Below are positions 4,021 to 8,992 of a stretch of 55,745 nt of DNA, piece after piece. Under the pieces are notes generated by a model, which was not told the origin of the DNA, did not search any database, and saw only the letters and a list, made by a program, of their open reading frames with translations. How positions within the stretch are numbered: the stretch's first letter is position 1; every line of letters starts with the position of its first letter. Where the stretch lies: NCBI GenBank assembly GCA_003561215.1, contig PWXG01000115.1, positions 1 to 55,745 on the forward strand, written 5' to 3'. Source of the DNA: Thermotogales bacterium. Its GTDB lineage: Bacteria; Thermotogota; Thermotogae; Petrotogales; Kosmotogaceae. The position numbers were made by a program, and so were the translations under genes.

Positions 4021-4956
4021 ATGCAGGGATGCGAGAAAATCGTTCATATTGACAGGGCACTGTCAGTGCTTGAGCCGATGCTACAAGCCTGTTGTCTCTG
4101 TCCCAGGATGTGCAAGGTCGATAGGAACAGCTCAGCCGGCTTTTGCCGGCAGAGTGTACTTCCAAGAGTTTCTTCAGCGCTGCTGCATTTTGGTGAAGAG
4201 CCGCCGCTTGTAAAGAGTGGAGGTTCGGGGACTGTCTTCTTCAGTGGCTGTTCAATGAGGTGTGTTTACTGTCAGAATTTCGCGATCAGCCAGAAGAACA
4301 ACGGTAGAGACATTTCAGCTGCTTCACTGTCAGATGTCTTTTTGGCATTGCAGGATGATGGAGCGGAGAATATAAACTTGGTAACTCCGACGGCGCATCT
4401 TCCGGGGATTCTCCGAGCATTGAGGGTGTCATTTAAGGAAGGTCTTGGTATTCCGATAGTGTACAACACGAGCAGCTATGAGAGGCCAGAGATAATCGAG
4501 CAACTTGAAGGCATCGTTGACATTTATCTTGCTGATATAAGGTACACCGATGATGACAAGGGAGAAAGCTATTCTGGAGTTCGTGGCTACTGGACCGTTG
4601 CCAGCAGCGCGATAAAGGAAATGCACAGACAGGTGGGAGCATTCAAGGAAGGGCGACACGACGGTTCCAGGGGACTGATTATCCGGCACCTTGTCTTGCC
4701 CAATGGCATATCGGGCACTGAGCAAATGGCGGAGTTTATTGCGTATGAGCTTTCTTCGTCTGTCCCTGTATCTCTTATGTCTCAGTACAGACCTGTTTTT
4801 AACGCGAGGCATTTCCCCGAGATATCAAAAAGGATAACGGATGAGGAGTACAAACAGGCGCTCGTGCAACTTGAGATATACAATATTATCGGCTGGTTCC
4901 AGCACTTCTCAGGATTTGAGGAAGACAGAGTCAGGCCGATCAGGAGGCGAGGATGA
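4021..4956 (+). CDS. PflX-like radical SAM iron-sulfur protein
   Basis: The 311-residue protein has the radical SAM CxxxCxxC site (C77, C81, C84 in FSGCSMRCVYCQN), which binds a 4Fe-4S cluster and S-adenosylmethionine. An N-terminal cysteine set (C24, C25, C27, C31, C42) may hold a second cluster. This layout is that of the COG1313/PflX group, annotated as relatives of pyruvate-formate-lyase activating enzyme but with no settled substrate. No glycyl radical enzyme lies nearby. It follows murA by 13 nt, and its stop codon overlaps the mnhE start (ATGA), so it is in the same operon. Confidence 0.85.
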   Translation: MQGCEKIVHIDRALSVLEPMLQACCLCPRMCKVDRNSSAGFCRQSVLPRVSSALLHFGEEPPLVKSGGSGTVFFSGCSMRCVYCQNFAISQKNNGRDISAASLSDVFLALQDDGAENINLVTPTAHLPGILRALRVSFKEGLGIPIVYNTSSYERPEIIEQLEGIVDIYLADIRYTDDDKGESYSGVRGYWTVASSAIKEMHRQVGAFKEGRHDGSRGLIIRHLVLPNGISGTEQMAEFIAYELSSSVPVSLMSQYRPVFNARHFPEISKRITDEEYKQALVQLEIYNIIGWFQHFSGFEEDRVRPIRRRG

Positions 4957-5312
4957 TTTTTCTGCTTTCGTTCTTGATGTGGTGTGCACTCAGTGATTTG
5001 TTGACACCGGAAGGCATTGTAGTTGCCCTGTTTGTATCACTGATCGCAGAGTTGATTTCAAGGAAAATTATGCCTGGAGGTATACGATTGAAAGCGATGA
5101 TTCGTATACTTTCTGCGTTCCCACGGGCTTTTTATGCAGGTTCAAAGCTTGCTTTCTCAAAACCTCTCTTTACTTCCAGAGAAAGAAGTGTGCCTTCAGA
5201 TCGCATAGGAGAGTTTGCTGAAGTTGTTTCTACAACAATGACGCCAGACGAGATAGTAGTTTTTGAAGAAGGCGAGAAGCTGATAATTCACGGAGTCGAG
5301 AAGTGGCGTTAG
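4953..5312 (+). CDS. mnhE: Na+/H+ antiporter subunit E (MnhE/MrpE/MbhA-like)
   Basis: The small membrane protein (119 residues) has two N-terminal hydrophobic segments and a cytoplasmic-like tail. The features SKPLF, a conserved region ending VVSTTMTPDEIVV, and the tail LIIHGVEKW match MrpE. MrpE is a structural subunit of Mrp antiporters, which exchange Na+ for H+ across the inner membrane. It is shorter than classical MrpE (about 160 residues), in keeping with the MbhA type. It overlaps the gene before by 4 nt and mnhF by 10 nt. Confidence 0.85.
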   Translation: MIFLLSFLMWCALSDLLTPEGIVVALFVSLIAELISRKIMPGGIRLKAMIRILSAFPRAFYAGSKLAFSKPLFTSRERSVPSDRIGEFAEVVSTTMTPDEIVVFEEGEKLIIHGVEKWR

Positions 5313-5554
5313 CAGTTACAGCTATACTGGCAGCAGGGATTTCCTCGATCATTCTGGCACTGTATGCCAGAAAGGATGACTCATGGCGCCTTGTAGTTGC
5401 TTATTCTTCAATTGTTACCAAGGTCTCCATCTCTCTGTTGTTTATGAAAGCCGCTTTTGACATCAGGTTCTTTGCAGAAATGATAATCATTTTCTTGTTA
5501 CTAAGCGGCGGGGGAGCAATTATTGCAGTCTACTTTCTCGGGGTGGAGAAATGA
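5303..5554 (+). CDS. mnhF: Na+/H+ antiporter subunit F (MnhF/MrpF/MbhB-like)
   Basis: The 83-residue protein consists of three hydrophobic helices and little else, the pattern and length of MrpF. It starts with GTG 7 nt after GGAG and overlaps mnhE by 10 nt and mnhG by 4 nt. Its place between the E and G subunits is the strongest support. Confidence 0.82.
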   Translation: MALAVTAILAAGISSIILALYARKDDSWRLVVAYSSIVTKVSISLLFMKAAFDIRFFAEMIIIFLLLSGGGAIIAVYFLGVEK

Positions 5555-5823
5555 GCATTATTGGAACGGTTCTTTTTGTCTTTGGTATTGGTTTAATGAT
5601 AATTGGAACGATCAGGGCTGTAAAGGCGAAAACCCTGATAATTGCGCTACACTTTCTTGGAGTTTCAGACACTGTGGGGTTGGGTCTCATGGTAATCTCA
5701 GCAACTCTGCTCGGACTTGTCAGTCTTCAGGCCGGATTCTTTCTTTTTCTAGCACTGATTGTAAGTGGTCCTCTGGTTACTCATGTAACAGCCAGAGCGT
5801 ACCTGAGATCAAGGAGGAGATGA
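5551..5823 (+). CDS. mnhG: Na+/H+ antiporter subunit G (MnhG/MrpG/MbhC-like)
   Basis: The 90-residue protein has three membrane helices. It carries the ALHFLGVSDTVG region and the GPLVTHVTARAYLRS motif (GPxxxHxxxRAA in relatives), both typical of MrpG. It overlaps mnhF by an ATGA junction. Confidence 0.87.
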   Translation: MSIIGTVLFVFGIGLMIIGTIRAVKAKTLIIALHFLGVSDTVGLGLMVISATLLGLVSLQAGFFLFLALIVSGPLVTHVTARAYLRSRRR

Positions 5824-5824
5824 C

Positions 5825-6520
5825 TTGGTCTTTGCTATCACTAGTCTGGGAATGCTCTTTGTTGTTTCCAGCGTACTTGCCCTGAAGTCATCGAGCTCCT
5901 TCAACGCCGTGATATGGTTTGGTATAGTAGGTTTCATGGCATCGGCTATCATGTTTCTCGCTGGAGCTCCAGAGGTTGCTCTAACGCAGATAACCGTAGG
6001 GGTGGTTCTGGTAGTGCTAGTTTACATGATGGCCATAAGAAAACAACGCCGTGTAAGACTGGGGTACATACGAAGACACCTGATGATAGAAGAAAGTGCA
6101 GAAGGACTCACCGGCGTCGAATGGGATCTACTGAGTAAGATCGATGAGAAGGAAGGTTATGATGTTGATGCCGCTGTTTTTGATGACCTCAAGTCTGCAG
6201 TAAAAGCTTTGAAGACCGGACATGTAGATGTTGTATGCGGTGGAATTACCGATGACAGCGTAACTCAAGAGGAAGGGATAATCGTAGTTCCTTACCTTAC
6301 TTCCAGCAAGTATGAGTTCTTGGGCGAAATCGTTGACTATCTGAAAATGAAAGAGCTCGCTCAAAAGAATCCTTCTATCAAGGCCGTGCCGGTTACGGAA
6401 ACGGACTTTGTCTTTCTTCTTTCCGAGTCTTCCAAAGATATCAGGGCTTTCTTTGCGGAGGATTTGAGAATCCTTGCTGAAACTGGCGAACTCGAGAAGG
6501 TTGTGAGCAAATACTTATGA
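5825..6520 (+). CDS. MbhD/MrpA C-terminal-like antiporter subunit fused to a half solute-binding (SBP_bac_3-like) domain
   Basis: Residues 1-72 hold three membrane helices with the GAPEVALTQITVG motif of DUF4040/MbhD (the C-terminal part of MrpA). A basic stretch (RKQRRVRLGYIRRH) follows, and then about 140 soluble residues. Residues 94-165 match lobe 1 of family 3 solute-binding proteins (GVEWDLLSKIDEKEGYDV, then LKTGHVDVVCGGIT, then PYL). Residues 192-231 match its returning end (ELEKVVSKYL). Lobe 2 is reduced to about 25-35 residues, and the ligand-binding Arg that normally follows the G-I-T motif is replaced (TDDSVTQEE). The basic stretch suggests the soluble part lies in the cytoplasm. 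TTG start, 5-6 nt after GGAGGAG. Confidence 0.8.
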   Translation: MVFAITSLGMLFVVSSVLALKSSSSFNAVIWFGIVGFMASAIMFLAGAPEVALTQITVGVVLVVLVYMMAIRKQRRVRLGYIRRHLMIEESAEGLTGVEWDLLSKIDEKEGYDVDAAVFDDLKSAVKALKTGHVDVVCGGITDDSVTQEEGIIVVPYLTSSKYEFLGEIVDYLKMKELAQKNPSIKAVPVTETDFVFLLSESSKDIRAFFAEDLRILAETGELEKVVSKYL

Positions 6521-7197
6521 GGTCGTTTCTTATAGCAGTTCTTATTGGTTACTGTTTTCTAATTATCTCAGTTGGTGCTTGGGAAAACATGAAGGCAAGG
6601 GACGAGAATCCGATTAGAGAGATTTCGATGCGTGTCAACGTACCAAATACAGTTACCGCTGTTTATCTGCAGGTAAGGGTCTACGATACTCTCTTCGAAA
6701 TCGTCTTATTTACCCTAGTCGGTATCTCAGTAACTCTCATGCTAAAGTCTGAACCGGTTCATGAACAGCACGAACAAACAATAATAACATCTGCAACTGT
6801 TTATGGAAGCCTTGTTGCAGTGCTTTCAGTGACTGCTTTTTCGTACGTTGTGCTTAACGGTCATCTCACGCCTGGAGGAGGTTTTGCCGGTGGTGTTATC
6901 CTGGCAAGCGGAATAGCTCTTTATGGAATAACTTCAGGTTTCATGAGAGTGTACAAACACTACCAATGGCTCAGATTTGGGTTTCTTGAGGGCCTCACCT
7001 TCTTCATTATCGTTTTCATCATGACTCTTGGTTCCGTTATTCCTGGTGCACTTGAAAAACTCAACCAGGGGCAGGTATACGGTGCCCTCTTCAGCGGCGG
7101 AGTTATTCCCTTGCTGAATATTCTTGTCGGAATAAAGGTTTATGCAGCGTCCTGGAAAATGGCTGCAGAATTTATCGCAAGGAGGGGCCCCCTCTGA
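6517..7197 (+). CDS. mnhB: MbhE-MrpB fusion subunit of Mrp-type antiporter
   Basis: The first about 85 residues, with an N-terminal helix, a VYLQVRVYDTLFEIVLF segment and a second helix, resemble MbhE (the last part of MrpA). From about residue 95 the protein is MrpB-like, with the signature LTPGGGFAGGVILASG and four helices. Subunits that are separate MbhE and MbhF in Pyrococcus Mbh are thus joined here. The ATG overlaps the stop of the gene before it (ATGA). Confidence 0.85.
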   Translation: MRSFLIAVLIGYCFLIISVGAWENMKARDENPIREISMRVNVPNTVTAVYLQVRVYDTLFEIVLFTLVGISVTLMLKSEPVHEQHEQTIITSATVYGSLVAVLSVTAFSYVVLNGHLTPGGGFAGGVILASGIALYGITSGFMRVYKHYQWLRFGFLEGLTFFIIVFIMTLGSVIPGALEKLNQGQVYGALFSGGVIPLLNILVGIKVYAASWKMAAEFIARRGPL

Positions 7198-7205
7198 TTT
7201 TTCGT

Positions 7206-7553
7206 ATGGTGATCTATATCTCGTTTCTTGCGGCGGCGATTGGCATTTACGGGATGATAGTCTGCAGAAATATGATAAGAAAGGTAATATCATTGGGAAT
7301 ACTGGAAACAGGGACAACCATGTTCTTTGTTGGAGTTTCAGCTGCGACTGGTCTCACAGCACCTGTTGTTCCAGGCTTGGACAATCTTGGTTCGAGCTTT
7401 GCAGATCCCGTTCCTCAGGCACTGATTATCACGGGCATTGTTATAAACTTCTCGATTCTTTGTTTGCTTTTGGTTTTCACCATTATGCTAATGAACAGGT
7501 ATCACACTATTGATGTGAACACGATAGAGAAGATACTGGAGAAGGAGGAATAA
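7206..7553 (+). CDS. mnhC: Na+/H+ antiporter subunit C (MnhC/MrpC, NuoK-like)
   Basis: Three membrane helices in 115 residues, with DPVPQALIITGIVINFS in helix 3, identify MrpC, the homologue of NuoK of complex I. The annotated ATG at 7206 lies 20 nt from the only good ribosome-binding site (AAGGAGG, 7179-7185). In-frame CTG 7194 (8 nt spacing) or ATT 7197 (11 nt) fit better, so the real start may be non-standard and add three or four residues. The stop overlaps the mnhD start. Confidence 0.87.
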   Translation: MVIYISFLAAAIGIYGMIVCRNMIRKVISLGILETGTTMFFVGVSAATGLTAPVVPGLDNLGSSFADPVPQALIITGIVINFSILCLLLVFTIMLMNRYHTIDVNTIEKILEKEE

Positions 7554-8992
7554 TGGAAGTCCTCCTTCTCCCGATAATTCCAGTGACATGCGGTACACTG
7601 GCAGTTCTTCTGAGAAGAAAACGAAAGCTCCCTTTGACTCTCTTCTTTATCTCCTGCGCTGCAACGATCGTCGTTATACTGACGTTAATAGGCCAGGACA
7701 AGACTTATCAAATAGGTCAGTGGGGCGCTGTAGGTGTGACGGTTGGATTCGATGAACTGAACCTGCCTTTCATGCTGTCATCGATGATTGTTGCAGCCGC
7801 AGTCTGCCTGAGTGCGTCTACAAGAGCCATCTACGATGGATACTTCTATGGTCTGGTGATGATGTTACTTGGTGGTCTGAATGCAGTATACATTTCACGA
7901 GATCTTTTCAATATTTACGTTACTTTTGAGCTGGCTTCCATAGTTGTATATATTCTGATTGCTTATGGTAAGAAAGGCAAGCAGATCTGGGCAGCCATGA
8001 AATATGCCCTGTTATCGACAGTGGGCTTTTCTATCTTCTTGATCGGTGCCGGTCTTGCTTATATGGAGGCAGGGAGCTTTTCATTTGCCGCTCTTGACGA
8101 TGTTGGAGACCTCGCTGGAGCACTCATCTTTGCTGGACTTGCTGTGAAGTCTGGTCTGTTCTTTCTGTCGATGTGGTTGCCTGATGTCTATAATAGCACT
8201 CCTGCGGAAATACCGCTGTTATCCGGAATGGTCATAAAGGCCGAAGACTATCTGATATTGAGATTTATCTCCTATGGATCGTTCACCTGGTTGGCGCCAA
8301 TGTATCTGGCTATTGGTACTATAAGCGCGGTAATCGGTGCTGTTTATGCCATGAGCACCCAGAAATCTCAAAGAATTCTTGCCTATCACACCTTTTCACA
8401 AATCGGTTTCATAGTGACAGCTTCAGACATCCACGGAGCGTGGCATGCGTTTAGTCACTCAATATTCAAGGGGCTCCTGCTGCTTTCCTGTGGGAAAGTG
8501 GGAGAACGCCTTAAGACTAACGATCTATCAAAGTGGAAGGGGAATATCAGGTTATCAGAGTACATTCCCATCCTTGTCGGTTCCCTTGCAATCATAGGAT
8601 TTCCTCTGACTTCAGGATATGTAACGAAAGGCAACATAATCGATAACGTTCCTTTCATCGCAGTTGTCATGCTTACGATTGCCTCTGTAGCGACTGTAAT
8701 TAGTTTTTGCAAGCTTGTCTTCATTCCTCTTTCAAGAAGGCCTCTAAAACTTCCTCTGCAGTTGATTATGGCTTACGCTATTCTTGCTTCGGGGATCCTC
8801 TTTCATGGGGTAATCAAATTCGACTACTACAAGGTGCCCGAATCAGCTGCTGTGATAGGTGCAGGCGTACTCATCTACTTCCTCATAAGGAAGCATTTCA
8901 GACCTCTTAGCAGGAGATTCGAACTACTGGATGAGTCGATAATCATGTTCATGGTTTTTGTTGCAGTAGTCCTCACGGTGCTGATTCTGTAG
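7553..8992 (+). CDS. mnhD: Na+/H+ antiporter subunit D (MnhD/MrpD/MbhH-like)
   Basis: The 479-residue polytopic protein belongs to the proton-translocating NuoL/M/N family. It has the ELASIVVYILIAYGKK region, a membrane lysine in GLAVKSGLFFLSMWLPDVY, and AYHTFSQIGFI with HAFSHSIFKGLLLLSCG. These are the conserved charged residues of the channel. It is the only antiporter-like large subunit here: no NuoL-like MrpA precedes the module, which is the arrangement of membrane-bound hydrogenase antiporter modules. It ends the operon; tRNA-Trp follows with its own promoter. Confidence 0.9.
   Translation: MEVLLLPIIPVTCGTLAVLLRRKRKLPLTLFFISCAATIVVILTLIGQDKTYQIGQWGAVGVTVGFDELNLPFMLSSMIVAAAVCLSASTRAIYDGYFYGLVMMLLGGLNAVYISRDLFNIYVTFELASIVVYILIAYGKKGKQIWAAMKYALLSTVGFSIFLIGAGLAYMEAGSFSFAALDDVGDLAGALIFAGLAVKSGLFFLSMWLPDVYNSTPAEIPLLSGMVIKAEDYLILRFISYGSFTWLAPMYLAIGTISAVIGAVYAMSTQKSQRILAYHTFSQIGFIVTASDIHGAWHAFSHSIFKGLLLLSCGKVGERLKTNDLSKWKGNIRLSEYIPILVGSLAIIGFPLTSGYVTKGNIIDNVPFIAVVMLTIASVATVISFCKLVFIPLSRRPLKLPLQLIMAYAILASGILFHGVIKFDYYKVPESAAVIGAGVLIYFLIRKHFRPLSRRFELLDESIIMFMVFVAVVLTVLIL

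Follow-up and report, generated by a model that had tools for sequence, protein, structure and literature searches.

Why should a subunit of a predicted cation/proton antiporter end in what appears to be part of a solute-binding protein (SBP), a fold that as a rule captures amino acids outside the cell? The question is raised by a gene cluster in a Thermotogales bacterium, within the 55,745-nucleotide stretch of DNA that was analysed as a whole, here called the window. A first-pass annotation, made from the letters alone, had described one open reading frame of this cluster as an antiporter subunit fused to a one-lobed solute-binding domain. The cluster has the order E-F-G-X-B-C-D, where X is the fusion protein, and comprises the following features.

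4953..5312, forward strand: mrpE/mnhE-like subunit, 119 aa (PF01899 at E = 7e-4, below Pfam's cut-off; cluster position kept in relatives)
5303..5554, forward strand: mrpF-like subunit, 83 aa (cluster position; BLAST to the F position of other Thermotogota; weak NCBIfam subunit F match)
5551..5823, forward strand: mrpG subunit, 90 aa (PF03334, E = 4.9e-7)
5825..6520, forward strand: fusion protein X, MbhD/DUF4040 plus an SBP_bac_3-derived lobe 1, 231 aa, TTG start
5855..6052, forward strand: MbhD domain of X, residues 11-76 (PF13244, E = 7.8e-16; three transmembrane helices in the AF2 model)
6044..6517, forward strand: one-lobed SBP_bac_3-derived domain of X, predicted to be cytoplasmic, residues 74-231 (PF00497; AF2 and Foldseek; PDB profile search; first strand 76-82)
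6320..6385, forward strand: lobe 2 remnant in X, residues 166-187, including D171, the aligned counterpart of the Asp that holds the ligand ammonium group in GlnBP-like proteins
6517..7197, forward strand: mrpB subunit, 226 aa, with a weak MbhE-like N-terminal part (PF20501, E = 0.026) and MnhB (PF04039, E = 4e-16)
7206..7553, forward strand: mrpC subunit, 115 aa (PF00420, E = 2.4e-18)
7553..8992, forward strand: mrpD, the sole antiporter-like subunit of the cluster, 479 aa (PF00361, E = 5.9e-34)

The TTG start of X lies one base past the mrpG stop, and X overlaps the start of mrpB by four bases. Mrp antiporters are related in structure to the membrane arm of complex I, and the gene set of an Mrp without MrpA (E, F, G, MbhD, B, C and D) is complete in the window, with E and F, whose matches are weak, placed partly by position. 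No MrpA-like gene was found in the cluster; other PF00361 genes of this genome, which is 93% complete, are found on another contig, C5. From its gene content the cluster is predicted to encode a stand-alone Mrp-type cation/proton antiporter without MrpA, of which X would be the MbhD subunit. The contig C5 genes belong to an operon for an MBH/complex I-like oxidoreductase (L169:752-9178) with NuoB/C/D/H-like subunits and, judged by eye, FAD/iron-sulphur subunits like sulfhydrogenase beta/gamma. The MbhD of that redox-type complex is an ordinary MbhD-MbhE fusion without an SBP domain.

The nearest described system to the window cluster is the stand-alone Mrp of Pyrococcus furiosus, mrpEFGBB'CD, which lacks MrpA and is needed for the response to pH (PMC8415708). 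Both have the order E-F-G-[MbhD]-B-C-D, without MrpA or a redox module and with a single antiporter-like MrpD. They differ in the MbhD-MbhE pair: the published description of P. furiosus has the two fused in MrpB, whereas in the window the half-SBP is attached to MbhD and B contains the MbhE-like part, so that the pair has been split in another way. The PF20501 match of this N-terminal part of MrpB strengthens from E = 0.026 in the window protein to 3.3e-5 in the B subunit of a relative. An Mrp-type cluster of this gene content was thus already known; the novelty lies in the half-SBP attached to MbhD.

The domain content of X was assessed with profiles and with structure prediction. X matches the Pfam MbhD entry over residues 11-76 with 58.4 bits (cut-off 27.2) and SBP_bac_3 over residues 92-231 with 31.6 bits and E = 1.5e-7 (curated cut-off 26.4). 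Among diverse homologues, all 29 match MbhD and 27 of the 29 match SBP_bac_3, the latter with E-values as low as 1.9e-18, which greatly exceeds what chance would give; some relatives score slightly under the SBP_bac_3 cut-off. An AF2 model of X built from 29 sequences (pLDDT 89, pTM 0.71) begins with helices 2-21, 25-45 and 49-73, the three MbhD helices that the first-pass annotation had noted. There follow strand 76-82, helix 98-110, strand 113-119, helix 122-131 and strand 136-142, then a long strand 152-165, helix 172-181, strand 188-200 and helices 201-220 and 222-230. A Foldseek comparison of the model with the PDB gave 474 matches at E <= 0.001, the best being to the glutamine-binding protein GlnBP (4g4p, E = 8.6e-10), along with the arginine-binding protein (ArgBP) of Thermotoga maritima (6svf, E = 5.3e-9). 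A profile of the domain alone matched the substrate-binding domain of GlnP (6h30, E = 1.9e-21), ArgBP (6svf, E = 5e-12) and also an engineered single lobe (7a99, E = 7.3e-7). Model, Foldseek and PDB profile search thus agree on the one-lobed type II binding-protein fold that had been proposed, and the identity of X as MbhD plus an SBP-derived half seems to us close to certain.

What remains of an SBP in this half is essentially lobe 1. Every long profile alignment to SBPs leaves some 57-61 residues of the SBP chain without counterpart at a single point, which corresponds to lobe 2. The remnant of that lobe comprises 22 residues in the window protein, near the 'about 30' first estimated, and 19-51 across the family, none of whose examined members has a full lobe 2. 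Intermediate remnants of 38-51 residues are seen in Thermotogota of families f2 (L021, L033, L038, L041, L047) and f5/f7 (L055, L058, L061), against about 22 elsewhere. The C-terminal half of X is best explained as a family 3 SBP from which most of lobe 2 has been lost. With SBP_bac_3 proteins such as GlnBP and T. maritima ArgBP (TmArgBP), and with the engineered one-lobe TmArgBP D1 (7a99), it shares the lobe 1 fold and the C-terminal return. Unlike them, X has no signal peptide, is predicted to hold the domain in the cytoplasm rather than outside, and lacks the ligand Arg; and in place of two lobes with a hinge it has, by alignment and in the AF2 model, one lobe with some 20-50 residues of the other. 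The domain is therefore SBP-derived, yet without the two lobes, the Arg and the outside location of a working SBP. Searches elsewhere added little: tblastn against a plasmid collection gave no matches, and a search of a viral structure library only weak SBP-like ones.

Whether such a domain could still bind a ligand was considered from its site residues. The absence of the carboxylate-binding Arg, claimed from the window protein, extends to the family, since in the loop concerned no column is Arg in more than four of 53 non-redundant members and the loop is largely deleted in about half of them. The ligand site as a whole has not simply been lost, however. D171, which HMM alignments place on the Asp of the lobe 2 motif '(T/D)D..V..Y', is Asp in 83% of non-redundant members. 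In GlnBP and the lysine/arginine/ornithine-binding protein LAOBP this Asp binds the ligand ammonium group, and its equivalent is mostly kept in the family. Further conserved positions of the domain are G97, E99, D135, G139, L158 and T/S160.

The statement that family 3 binding proteins need two lobes was also too strong. Domain 1 of T. maritima ArgBP, taken by itself, still has a Kd of 3.4 uM for Arg, and a crystal structure of the single lobe with Arg has been obtained (PMC7589609); the separated halves of ribose-binding protein, on the other hand, do not bind (PMC10601554). It is thus conceivable that X is a small-molecule sensor, in which lobe 1 alone, with D171, binds an amine, a guanidino compound or a cation and gates the antiporter. 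The micromolar affinity of the TmArgBP lobe and the frequent retention of the ammonium-Asp equivalent speak for this possibility, which we nevertheless view as tentative and somewhat doubtful: the Arg is lost, the Asp is conserved in ordinary SBPs too and may be structural, and the pocket residues, which vary across the family, have decayed in family f9 and in the cyanobacterial relatives described below. Members of f9 have lost the CG of the CGG loop and often have another residue in place of D171. The loss of the Arg together with this variable and decayed pocket argues against one universal ligand.

A fusion in a single contig might also be an accident of sequencing. The first-pass annotation had named a frameshift or assembly error as the alternative, and had proposed looking for the same fusion in other Thermotogota. 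It is there, and is far from peculiar to one genome: of the 103 Thermotogota genomes searched with the domain-only profile, 69 contain the domain at E <= 6.8e-17. They represent every one of the 11 sampled families, each match lies at the MbhD locus, and the next-best matches (E >= 2.6e-10) are ordinary SBPs. In 68 of these genomes MbhD and the domain occupy a single open frame. Stand-alone MbhD copies in the relatives are of about 80 aa. Ratios of dN/dS for the domain are 0.05-0.23 in close, unsaturated pairs, distant pairs having been left out because dS was saturated, and the half-SBP domain is under purifying selection. The one-frame fusion in 68 genomes and dN/dS values well below 1 rule out an artefact that joined an antiporter gene to an SBP gene, to which we attach negligible probability.

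The same data bear on the idea that an old gene fusion has left behind a domain without function, now in decay. Loss of lobe 2 and the Arg would fit with decay, as would the smaller or more degenerate versions in cyanobacteria and f9 and the single genome (G040, L071:5024-5770) in which MbhD and the SBP-like domain, of 94 and 198 aa, lie in two frames through a frameshift or sequencing error. Against decay stand the open frames in which the domain has been retained across every sampled family (69 genomes out of 103), the low dN/dS and a well-packed AF2 model with pLDDT around 90, and this explanation is quite improbable. Cluster order varies among the families, being C-D-E-F-G-X-B in f8, f10 and f11 and E-F-G-X-B-C-D in f1, f2 and f7. 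In family f9 (G085, G083, G084, G080, G082) the cluster is dispersed, with E-F-G-X together and B and a single D elsewhere; X of f9 retains the domain despite this, in a more degenerate form.

The side of the membrane on which the domain lies follows from the distribution of positive charge. Averaged over 67 sequences, there are 1.5 Lys/Arg in the TM1-TM2 loop, 0.04 in the TM2-TM3 loop and 3.5 in the stretch after TM3, a pattern which, with three helices, places the N-terminus outside and the C-terminus inside. MbhD is accepted as homologous to TM17-19 of MrpA and to NuoJ. The published equivalence of MbhD plus MbhE with the C-terminal part of MrpA and with NuoJ (PMC7419157) agrees with an internal C-terminus. 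The half-SBP domain is therefore very probably cytoplasmic, as first proposed, although the assignment comes from sequence.

In the AF2 model only a two-residue junction separates TM3 (49-73) from the first strand of the domain (76-82), and over the 35 positions that begin at P49 and end at residue 83 the sequences compared, 67 from Thermotogota and 24 from cyanobacteria (91 in all from two phyla), align without insertions or deletions. That a helix and a short linker are free of indels is weak evidence for mechanical coupling. In the Mrp of Bacillus the counterpart of TM3, TMH19, carries E687, which is central to sodium loading, and for the equivalent helix of ND6 a rotation that interconverts alpha and pi forms has been proposed (PMC9568556). 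A domain fixed to TM3 would thus be well placed to hold or twist that helix. The acidic cation-site residues of this helix differ between the systems. The C-terminal part of Bacillus-type MrpA (7qru, 6z16) shares with X an MbhD-like three-helix unit, but there the unit is inside MrpA and is followed by MbhE-like helices with no SBP domain, and the position of E687 is G59 in X. The MbhD of MBH and MBS (6cfw, 6u8y) is a stand-alone protein of about 95 aa without an SBP domain, whose E69 corresponds to Q55. X of the window (residues 55 and 59 lie within 5987-6001) therefore has no TM3 acid at either position. In the family, position 55 is Glu in 38 of 53 members and Gln in 14, while G59 is present in all 53. 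Carriers of Q55 include Kosmotogaceae-type (f1) and Marinitoga-like members.

The most likely role of the domain seems to us that of a cytoplasmic regulatory or coupling element on MbhD TM3, although the chances that this is correct are about equal to those that it is not. Functional coupling to TM3 of either kind, regulatory or structural, is an evenly balanced proposition in the same way. The half-SBP domain would act on the ion path through TM3: when a cytoplasmic partner docks, or when a small ligand, cationic or an amine, docks close to D171 and the CGG loop, TM3 would be twisted or held in place, and the level of antiport would be set in this way. Without a ligand, the domain may stiffen the junction between TM3 and the first strand. 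That SBP_bac_3 domains serve as regulatory modules elsewhere is indicated by the chains of BvgS, EvgS and MltF among the PDB matches of the domain-only profile, and we infer a possible gating or sensing role here. Were the coupling true, a conserved soluble domain fixed to a putative cation-loading helix would offer a handle on the control of the Mrp ion path. The domain would also represent a natural, long-lived single SBP lobe inside the cell, single lobes having so far been studied only as engineered proteins.

Alternatively, the half-SBP might be purely structural, a cap that aids assembly or stability from the cytoplasmic side, fills the space of the missing MrpA or redox module and binds no small molecule. 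MrpA is absent from all X-bearing clusters seen, the pocket residues drift, and the cyanobacterial version retains the order of fold elements but not the site residues. Against this, Thermotogota other than f9 have mostly kept the CGG loop, L158 and D171, and the MrpA-less Mrp of P. furiosus, with the same gene order, is described without any such domain (PMC8415708). We consider a pure cap a lesser but substantial possibility.

Related proteins are also found in cyanobacteria. We analysed 80 cyanobacterial-type loci, one of them labelled as a Chloroflexaceae MAG, which were retrieved with an approximate bait sequence, to which the matches are 54-66% identical. As in most Thermotogota, these group 3 Mrp clusters have the order C-D-E-F-G-X-B (67 of the 80 loci, with near variants in the rest), X being MbhD with a cytoplasmic tail. 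The tail is shorter than in Thermotogota and lacks the final helices. Profile-profile comparison with hhalign connects the whole Thermotogota and cyanobacterial proteins with E = 2.2e-25 over 146 columns, and the tails alone with E = 1.2e-5 and a probability of 81% over 43 columns. When the cyanobacterial tail was modelled (pLDDT 68), its elements followed one another as in Thermotogota up to strand 180-184, where the tail ends, with a half-SBP-like topology b-a-b-a-b...b-a-b. Foldseek matches of this model are weak (best E = 2.3e-3), yet nearly all are to type II periplasmic binding protein (PBP)-like folds: LysR effector domains, NlpA-type lipoproteins and porphobilinogen deaminase. The cyanobacterial tails gave no SBP_bac_3 match in Pfam and nothing significant in a profile search of the PDB. 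The link therefore relies on the hhalign results, the gene order and a moderate model with type II PBP-like matches; taken together these suggest that the tail is probably a further reduced form of the half-SBP domain.

On its widest reading, the one-lobed cytoplasmic SBP domain would be of ancient origin and would serve group 3 Mrp of Thermotogota and Cyanobacteria as an in-built sensor or as a coupling element on MbhD TM3, through which a cytoplasmic metabolite or partner gates the antiporter. We offer this as a speculation that is, on present evidence, rather unlikely to hold in full. Even so, a phylum-wide domain with a smaller cyanobacterial version hints that a widely distributed ion pump, present in T. 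maritima and many cyanobacteria among others, has a control domain that has escaped notice.

The domain is not evident from current annotation, in which X-type proteins are filed as 'hypothetical' or 'DUF4040' and it has been overlooked. The view that no Mrp subunit of this kind had been described stands as regards the literature, where a search of mainly openly accessible papers found none recognising an SBP domain on an Mrp subunit. It requires amendment as regards databases, since NCBIfam PRK07377 (NF005627-NF005630, 'hypothetical protein') groups similar proteins. X matches PRK07377 over residues 11-193 with E = 6.4e-13 and 48.9 bits, below the equivalog cut-off of 149. In a control search a PRK07377 match was also obtained in T. 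maritima, and Synechococcus elongatus scored above the cut-off of one of the PRK07377 models.
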